Shown here piece after piece: positions 3,042-33,748 of a stretch of DNA of 64,000 bases. Position 1 is the stretch's first letter; every line of letters begins with the position of its first letter. Origin of the DNA: Wenjunlia vitaminophila DSM 41686 (GTDB lineage: Bacteria > Actinomycetota > Actinomycetes > Streptomycetales > Streptomycetaceae); contig NZ_KB904713.1 of the NCBI RefSeq assembly GCF_000380165.1, positions 107,639 to 171,638 of the forward strand, in the 5' to 3' direction. The notes beneath the pieces are model-generated. The model was not told where the DNA came from. It saw only the letters and a list, made by a program, of their open reading frames with translations, and made no database searches. Position numbers and translations under genes: made by a program.

Positions 3042-3905
3042 TCAGACGAGCACCACCCCCGCCACGGTCGTCGCCGCGAGCGCGACGATCACCAGGACGT
3101 TGAACACCACGTCCTGGTTCTGCGAGCGGTGTTCGGCCGCGCGGTCCAGCGTGAAGTCGGCCGGATCGGCGGGCGCGTAGTGGACCGTGACGTCACGGCC
3201 GTACGCGCCGGCCGGGTCCGGGAGGTTCGACGTGCAGTGGGCCGTGACGGCCACGCCCCCGCGCGTCGTGAACGACACCACCGGGGTGATCGTGGTCCAG
3301 GTGCCGCCGTCGTCCTCGTCGACGCGCACGTCCTGCAGGACCGCGACGACCCGTCCCCGCACGCTCTCCATCGCGGCCAGCCTCGCGACGCGGCCGTTCT
3401 TGGCACGTACCGTCTCGGGCAGGTACGCGGCGGCGTAGACCGCCCACGGCCCGCCGAAGCCGATCAGCGCCCACGGCCACCCCCACTCGAGCGCGGCGAG
3501 GACCACCAGCCCGACGTAGACCAGGAAGACCGCGAAACTCGGCCAGCCCAGCCCACGACTTGGCTCCTCGGGGACGTTGGAGAACTGGTAGGCGTGCGGC
3601 CTGCCCCGCGGGTGGCTGACCCCGATCTCCCGGCCCTCCCACGCCGCGGTGATCATCTCGCCGCGCTCACCGTCGTTCGTCACGGTGACCTCCTGCCCGG
3701 AGGCCGGGTCGTGGTAGGAGACGACCACCGATATCCCGCCGCTGCGGGACCCGCCGTGCCGGGGCTCCCGCACCCGCACGATCCGCCCCGTGAGCCGGAC
3801 CGTCCGCTGCGCCCTGGTCACCCCGGCCAGCGCCATGCCATACCCGGCCAGCGCCACCACACCCCACACCGCGCACCACAGCACCACTGCCTCGTCCCAC
3901 CCCAT
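3042..3905 (-). CDS. DUF3592-like membrane protein
   Basis: A 287-residue protein with a membrane segment near the N-terminus (VVLWCAVWGVVALAGYGMAL), a soluble beta-rich domain (VRLTGRIVRVRE..VSYHDPASGQEVTV), a central pair of membrane segments (about 130-175), a second copy of the same kind of beta domain (VRGRVVAVLQDVRV..VSFTTRGGVAVTAHC) and a C-terminal membrane segment. Two DUF3592-type halves in one chain suggest internal duplication. The start at 3905 is preceded by a strong GGAGGAGGG; a longer start at 3932 lacks one. It follows the next gene upstream on the same strand after 97 bases, probably as one operon. Function unknown; a cell-envelope role is inference. Confidence 0.75.
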   Translation of the reverse strand: MGWDEAVVLWCAVWGVVALAGYGMALAGVTRAQRTVRLTGRIVRVREPRHGGSRSGGISVVVSYHDPASGQEVTVTNDGERGEMITAAWEGREIGVSHPRGRPHAYQFSNVPEEPSRGLGWPSFAVFLVYVGLVVLAALEWGWPWALIGFGGPWAVYAAAYLPETVRAKNGRVARLAAMESVRGRVVAVLQDVRVDEDDGGTWTTITPVVSFTTRGGVAVTAHCTSNLPDPAGAYGRDVTVHYAPADPADFTLDRAAEHRSQNQDVVFNVLVIVALAATTVAGVVLV

Positions 3906-32707: not shown

Positions 32708-32965
32708 CCCTGGCTGGTGCCCCCGCCCTCCGGGCGGACGGCGCCACACACCGGGGCCGGTCCGGTCGGAACGGGGCGGTCAACGCGGGGCGCGGACGGA
32801 ACCACGGGGCGCGCGGCACCTGGTGACCGAGTGGCGGGCGGGCACACGGCCAGCCCGCCACGGCGGGGGCGCACGGGTACGGACAGCACGGCACTGACTG
32901 GACGACAAGACGACCGCACCACAACGGCACGACAAGACGGCGGCACGACAAGATGGCGGCACGAC

Positions 32966-32992
32966 AAAGGCCCTGTCATCGACAGGGCCTTT
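32966..32992. terminator. Terminator between purC and the tRNA-Gly genes
   Basis: AAAGGCCCTGTC (32966-32977) pairs perfectly with GACAGGGCCTTT (32981-32992) around ATC, and TTCTTGTTG follows on the plus strand. It separates converging units. Just upstream, at about 32900-32965, GGCACGACAAGA recurs roughly every 16 bases. Bases 32708-32900 are otherwise empty. Confidence 0.85.
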
Positions 32993-33012: not shown

Positions 33013-33085
33013 AGCGGACGACGGGATTCGAACCCGCGACCCTCACCTTGGCAAGGTGATGCTCTACCAACTGAGCCACGTCCGC
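33013..33085 (-). tRNA. tRNA-Gly (anticodon GCC)
   Basis: 73 bases on the minus strand. The acceptor stem GCGGACG/CGTCCGC is perfect, the D-loop carries GG, the anticodon loop is TTGCCAA on a five-pair stem, and the T-arm is GGGTTCGAATCCC. All canonical features are present. Discriminator U; CCA is not encoded. Confidence 0.97.
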
Positions 33086-33212: not shown

Positions 33213-33284
33213 AGCGGGTGACAGGGATCGCACACTGCGCCTCCCCCTTGGAAAGGGGGCGCTCTACTACTGAGCTACACCCGC
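33213..33284 (-). tRNA. tRNA-Gly (anticodon TCC) with aberrant D- and T-arms
   Basis: 72 bases on the minus strand, acceptor stem GCGGGTG/CACCCGC perfect, D-stem GCTC/GAGC intact and anticodon stem CCCCC/GGGGG with loop TTTCCAA. The D-loop is AGTAGTA, where the usual GG is AG. The T-loop reads TGCGATC in place of TTCGANC, so position 55 is G, not T. The standard five-pair T-stem (CAGTG against CCTGT) retains one Watson-Crick pair and one wobble. A shifted pairing GCAG/CTGT gives four pairs with a ten-base loop. The G18-psi55 tertiary contact is therefore lost on both sides. It may be a non-ribosomal or decaying tRNA. Confidence 0.75.
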
Positions 33285-33430
33285 GGGACTCCGGTTCTTC
33301 CGGGCTTCTGCCCGTTTCCCCGGCGCGTATGAGAACCATAGCGGATCACCGGGGGGAGCTGTCCAATCGGCCTCCGACAGCCAAGTCCGGCCCCGAACGC
33401 GCTGGTTGGGGCCGCACCTGGCCGCGCGGC

Positions 33431-33748
33431 TCAGCCCGCCTTGGCGAACGCCTCGTACACCTTCTTGGGGATGCGGCCCCGCGGGGGCACCTCCATCCCG
33501 TGGGACCGGGCCCAGGCGCGCACCGCGGCCGGGTCGGGCGCCACCGAGGTGGTGCGGTAGGTCTTGCCTGACCTGCTGCGTCGCCGTCCCGCATCGACAA
33601 AGGGGGCGAGTGCGTCGCGCAGCTTGTCCGCGTTCGCCGCCGACAGGTCGATCTCGTAGGTCTTCCCGTCGAGGCCGAAGGAGACGGTCTCGGCCGCTTC
33701 GCCGCCGTCGATGTCGTCGAAGAGGCTGACCACCACGCGCTGCACCAT
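33431..33748 (-). CDS. lsr2: Lsr2-family nucleoid-associated protein
   Basis: 105 residues. The N-terminal dimerisation half is VQRVVVSLFDDIDGGEAAET and VSFGLDGKTYEIDLSAANAD. The C-terminal DNA-binding half is VRAWARSHGMEVPPRGRIPK, with the Arg-Gly-Arg minor-groove clamp. Lsr2 proteins silence AT-rich DNA by bridging. In Streptomyces two paralogues exist, and the one next to purS is usually called LsrL; the position here matches that, so this may be the LsrL orthologue. It is divergent from purS across an AT-rich gap. Confidence 0.9.
   Translation of the reverse strand: MVQRVVVSLFDDIDGGEAAETVSFGLDGKTYEIDLSAANADKLRDALAPFVDAGRRRSRSGKTYRTTSVAPDPAAVRAWARSHGMEVPPRGRIPKKVYEAFAKAG

Follow-up and report, generated by a model that had tools for sequence, protein, structure and literature searches.

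An extra tRNA-Gly(UCC) that has a bulged T-stem and a replaced 18-55 contact is conserved in Streptomycetaceae and is a candidate glycine donor for the cell wall

In Staphylococcus aureus, certain tRNA-Gly(UCC) isoacceptors are normally charged, yet their binding to EF-Tu is weak, and they supply the synthesis of pentaglycine (PMC4052509, PMC8007984). Both reviews credit these isoacceptors to Giannouli et al. 2009, and the marks of the non-proteogenic tRNA-Gly are A49-U65, A51-U63, and the loss of G18 and G19 (PMC4052509, PMC8007984). How aminoacyl-tRNA is diverted to Fem-type enzymes has been called unclear in most instances (PMC4052509). In Streptomyces coelicolor, a single glycine is attached by FemX to the wall peptide and by VanK to the D-Ala-D-Lac (vancomycin-resistant) precursors, with Gly-tRNA as the donor in both cases (PMC4790382, PMC4052509). 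We found no report of the Streptomyces tRNA described below in the open-access literature; an earlier description elsewhere is possible.

The window, i.e., the whole stretch of 64,000 nucleotides from Wenjunlia vitaminophila DSM 41686 that was analysed, contains an altered tRNA-Gly(UCC) gene of 72 nt on the minus strand (33213..33284), in which the CCA end is not encoded. The gene was called by both ARAGORN and Rfam RF00005 (33212/33213-33284, minus strand, anticodon UCC), and its RF00005 score of 54.9 bits lies well above the gathering score of 29, which places it in the tRNA family. Direct reading found the acceptor stem GCGGGTG/CACCCGC, the D stem GCTC/GAGC, and the anticodon stem CCCCC/GGGGG to be fully paired, in agreement with the initial annotation, which had called these three stems perfect. 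That annotation was also right about the two loops, in which it had seen AG for GG and the sequence TGCGATC, with G18 and psi55 both replaced: the D-loop AGTAGTA has A18 in place of G18 (33268, minus strand) and retains G19 at 33267, and the T-loop TGCGATC (33226..33232, minus strand) has G55 at 33231. The anticodon loop UUUCCAA (33248..33254, minus strand; anticodon 33250-33252) is closed by a Watson-Crick 32-38 pair, here U-A. An alignment of relatives showed that G19-C56, U8-A14, and T54-A58 are retained. The bacterial glycine identity set consists of G1-C72, C2-G71, C35 C36, and U73, and all of these elements are present in this gene and in 45/45 relatives.

The altered gene is not the only tRNA-Gly(UCC) of this genome, as the search for another copy that the initial annotation had proposed found a canonical one elsewhere (L009:450, 71.6 bits), with a 4-nt variable loop and the T-stem GCGGG/CCCGT. 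A canonical UCC copy was matched also in all 37 other family genomes searched, and we therefore rejected the idea of a sole UCC isoacceptor. The canonical copy also served as reference for the T-arm. Read in the conventional register, the altered T-stem is CAGTG/CCTGT with one Watson-Crick pair, as previously noted, plus one G-U. When the variable loop is set to 4 nt as in the canonical copy, the stem becomes GCAG-U-G/CCTGT, with five pairs and one bulged U, and the loop has the normal length of 7 nt. The 5' strand of this stem lies at 33233..33238 (bulged U at 33234, A51 at 33236) and the 3' strand CCTGT at 33221..33225 (U63 at 33223), both on the minus strand. In comparison to the canonical stem, it differs only by the exchange of G51-C63 for A51-U63 and by the inserted U, which bulges between the pairs 52-62 and 53-61.

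Relatives were compared as 45 distinct sequences from 179 loci, to which the altered core is common, well beyond what chance would give. In these sequences, the bulged register is paired in 45/45 at four pairs and in 44/45 at the fifth, whereas the corresponding counts for the conventional register are 0/45, 0/45, 44/45 (G-U), 1/45, and 45/45. The lone exception (L183) has ACATGG/CCTGT, with the bulged U shifted by one place. The 5' strand is invariant in 41/45 and the 3' strand in 45/45 of the distinct relatives, and the T-loop is TGCRATY in 41/45 and TTCRATY in 4/45. Nearest-neighbour energies were -21.0 kcal/mol for the conventional register and -28.5 kcal/mol for both the bulged stem and the four-pair stem with a ten-base loop, which the initial annotation had held to be the only alternative. 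Despite this tie, we replaced the ten-base loop by the bulge on the grounds of homology and of the shifted bulge in L183, and we thus favour for the T-arm a five-pair stem that is normal apart from a bulged U and carries a 7-base loop. Minimum-free-energy folding was uninformative, as neither the altered nor the canonical copy was predicted to form a cloverleaf.

The altered tRNA was matched in 246/299 family genomes, and when the 22 weak matches, all from genus g14 (probably Kitasatospora), were set aside, about 224/299 strong matches remained. In a class-wide sample, the D-arm was matched in 38/39 genomes of genus g9, which we infer to be Streptomyces, and the 39th genome (G055) has the T-arm. 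No genome outside the family showed either pattern in the samples searched, which comprised 397 genomes of the phylum and 41 of the order for the T-arm and 395 genomes of the class for the D-arm. The gene adjoins lsr2 in 80/80 named Streptomycetaceae loci, one of which (L098) is partly masked by N, and is present as one to four tandem copies per locus. In L116, one of four tandem copies (3202-3277) contains an additional A in its T-stem and is possibly decaying.

The core is almost invariant across the 45 distinct sequences, and compensatory changes occur in the acceptor, D, and anticodon stems. By this pattern, the altered core itself, beyond the paired stems, is held by purifying selection. 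The UCC anticodon is invariant, and the 32-38 pair is always Watson-Crick (U-A in 23/45, C-G in 22/45), whereas C-A stands at this place in the family's canonical UCC copies. On the lsr2 tree, both letters of this pair change jointly at least 7 times, a count that is approximate because the tree rests on one short gene; with shuffled labels, 45-59 changes are needed. At 49-65, this gene and most relatives have G-U, and four sequences (g3, G010) have A-U.

The immediate surroundings are conserved as well. Downstream lies a normal tRNA-Gly(GCC) (33013..33085, minus strand, 73.4 bits), which ARAGORN called in 78/80 named loci, and upstream lies lsr2 (33431..33748, minus strand; PF11774 7e-29, PF23359 7e-17), the closest named relative of which is from Streptantibioticus rubrisoli with 87% protein identity, the other named matches being nearly all from Streptomyces. 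The three genes sit among purine-biosynthesis genes, which were named by ORF reading. Past the two-tRNA array, there is a terminator-like hairpin (32966..32992; 12-pair stem, T-run on the plus strand). Upstream of the altered tRNA, a promoter-like TTGC..-N19-TAGAGT was found in 125/152 distinct upstream regions of relatives, and the window has a candidate TTGGAC-N20-TATGGT (33335..33366, minus strand) in the same place, with weak spacing and hexamers; a consensus promoter scan of the window found none. Downstream of the tRNA-Gly(GCC), the window also contains a short repeated stretch of the type cggcacgacaag (32890-32970). In L027 (92-274), ARAGORN made two adjacent tRNA-Leu(UAA) calls, one of which is about 74 nt long and has no clear long variable arm.

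The distribution of states at 18 and 55 bears on how the altered core arose. Four early-branching sequences have G/U and 41 have A/G, and the mixed state was never seen among the 45 distinct sequences. Genera g2 and g5, the early branching of which is deduced from the divergence of their lsr2 and tRNA sequences, combine the bulged T-stem with a normal G18 and U55. The T-stem therefore probably changed before the 18-55 contact was replaced as a pair. The initial annotation had regarded the changes at these two partners as selected rather than random; that the two partners changed together is in effect confirmed by the strict coupling of the two positions, although the lsr2 tree needs just one change from G18/U55 to A18/G55 and thus contains a single event. 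A sister-family genome (G1013; L298 1501-1574) carries a second tRNA-Gly(UCC) with A51-U63, C32-G38, and a different T-stem bulge on the 3' strand, which does not adjoin lsr2 and hints at an older origin. The altered tRNA is missing from genera g11 and g14. When their loci were read (n=11; L172-L182), 10 had a second tRNA-Gly(GCC) in its place and L173 had a single GCC. The tRNA body of the second GCC copy is identical to that of its neighbour, which suggests that the altered tRNA was replaced via duplication or conversion of the GCC gene.

Enzymes that could use such a tRNA are present. The FemAB family (PF02388) was found in 17/17 family genomes, including this one, which has two such proteins, a FemX-like protein encoded beside ribosomal-protein genes and a VanK-like protein encoded in a van-type cluster. 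This cluster (L291 2023-8684; contig C35 of this genome, G000) contains VanS-, VanR-, VanK- (FemAB), MurF-, VanH-, and VanA-Sc-like genes, of which the ligase scored 655 bits on NF000129 (VanA-Sc); the names of all genes except FemAB and the ligase were assigned by sequence reading. As FemAB was also found in g11 and g14, co-occurrence in the 17 family genomes does not discriminate; in those lineages, the altered tRNA is not required for FemX, and the link is therefore not strict.

On balance, we lean towards the altered copy being a specialised second tRNA-Gly(UCC) that is kept off EF-Tu and supplies FemX and VanK with glycine for the wall. As the recognition elements of glycyl-tRNA synthetase are retained (G1-C72, C2-G71, C35 C36, U73), this enzyme would be expected to charge the tRNA with glycine. 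The bulged U, A51-U63, and the lack of psi55 and G18 would make it a poor substrate for EF-Tu, with presumably weak binding, and for the ribosome. The charged tRNA would thereby remain available to FemX and, in glycopeptide-resistant strains, to VanK, which would each add one glycine from it to the peptidoglycan stem peptide. This proposal is supported by the presence of a canonical UCC copy, the conserved core with its covariation, the conserved locus and promoter, the staphylococcal-type changes, and the FemAB genes. Its main weakness is that g11 and g14 have FemAB without the altered tRNA and mostly a duplicated tRNA-Gly(GCC) instead. In addition, the 49-65 pair is mostly G-U, a strong pair for EF-Tu according to reports, the early-branching members have a normal G18 and U55, and the gene is neither linked to nor near femX. 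The initial annotation had already suggested a non-ribosomal glycyl-tRNA of the staphylococcal kind; conservation, the second, canonical UCC copy, A51-U63, and the loss of G18 bear out the likeness, whereas the non-ribosomal role, like the step from sequence to wall function, is what we infer.

The retained anticodon loop, the invariant UCC, and the 32-38 pair kept through at least 7 joint changes suggest some selection on decoding geometry, and these features, together with G19-C56, U8-A14, T54-A58, and the good tRNA score, would also suit an ordinary translational isoacceptor that tolerates a relaxed elbow and is possibly used with low efficiency for GGA/GGG codons. We regard such a role as unlikely, since every genome searched already has a canonical UCC copy, purifying selection acts on the odd core itself and not on the paired stems alone, and the changes match ones that have been reported in staphylococci to go with weak EF-Tu binding. 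Rather improbable, in our opinion, is some other role that draws on Gly-tRNA or is regulatory, such as aminoacyl transfer in natural-product synthesis, for which Streptomyces offers the precedent of the Gly-tRNA-dependent transferases DhpK and Orf11 (PMC12945691), or a regulation of lsr2 or the tRNA genes, which the strongly conserved position beside lsr2 could indicate; near-universal presence in the family is more in keeping with a core process than with a pathway specific to certain strains. The non-canonical core and the lack of an encoded CCA could finally be taken as signs of a pseudogene, a relic, or a sequencing error, the first of which the initial annotation had offered as an option. 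This is very improbable and was rejected, as relatives carry the same altered core, (near-)identical in many independent assemblies, with compensatory changes, a conserved promoter, and tandem copies.

If the altered tRNA does serve the wall, it would join the staphylococcal tRNA as a second case of such dedication, probably by convergence and with an unusual structure in its bulged T-stem and swapped 18-55 contact, and it would have a bearing on the self-resistance of antibiotic producers. A broader proposal, which in our estimation could go either way, is that Streptomycetaceae evolved, independently of staphylococci, a wall-glycine tRNA-Gly that escapes EF-Tu via the bulged T-stem and the A18/G55 elbow, and that its supply also conditions VanK-dependent glycopeptide resistance in antibiotic producers. 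The occurrence of a family-wide candidate tRNA in genetically tractable Streptomyces makes the diversion of aminoacyl-tRNA to Fem-type enzymes directly testable.

Compared with the canonical tRNA-Gly(UCC) of Streptomyces, the altered tRNA shares the anticodon, the acceptor identity pairs, U73, and four of five T-stem pairs, whereas the canonical tRNA has an AATGGTA D-loop, a TTCGATT T-loop, G51-C63, no bulge, and C32-A38. The FemX/VanK glycine-branching system of S. coelicolor has its counterpart here in the two FemAB-family genes, one of them in a van-type cluster; a dedicated tRNA is not described for that system in the open-access literature found. With the non-proteogenic tRNA-Gly(UCC) of S. 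aureus, the altered tRNA has in common that it is an extra UCC isoacceptor beside canonical copies, with several gene copies in some genomes, that it has A51-U63, a changed T-loop, and no G18, and that FemX-family enzymes of the host add glycine to peptidoglycan. The two differ in that S. aureus has UU or CU for GG at 18-19, whereas the altered tRNA has A18 and keeps G19, and in that the staphylococcal mark A49-U65 corresponds to G-U in most members of the family described here; the bulged U in the T-stem is a feature of the altered tRNA that is unmentioned for S. aureus in PMC4052509 and PMC8007984. As S. aureus belongs to a different phylum, an independent origin of the two tRNAs is presumed.
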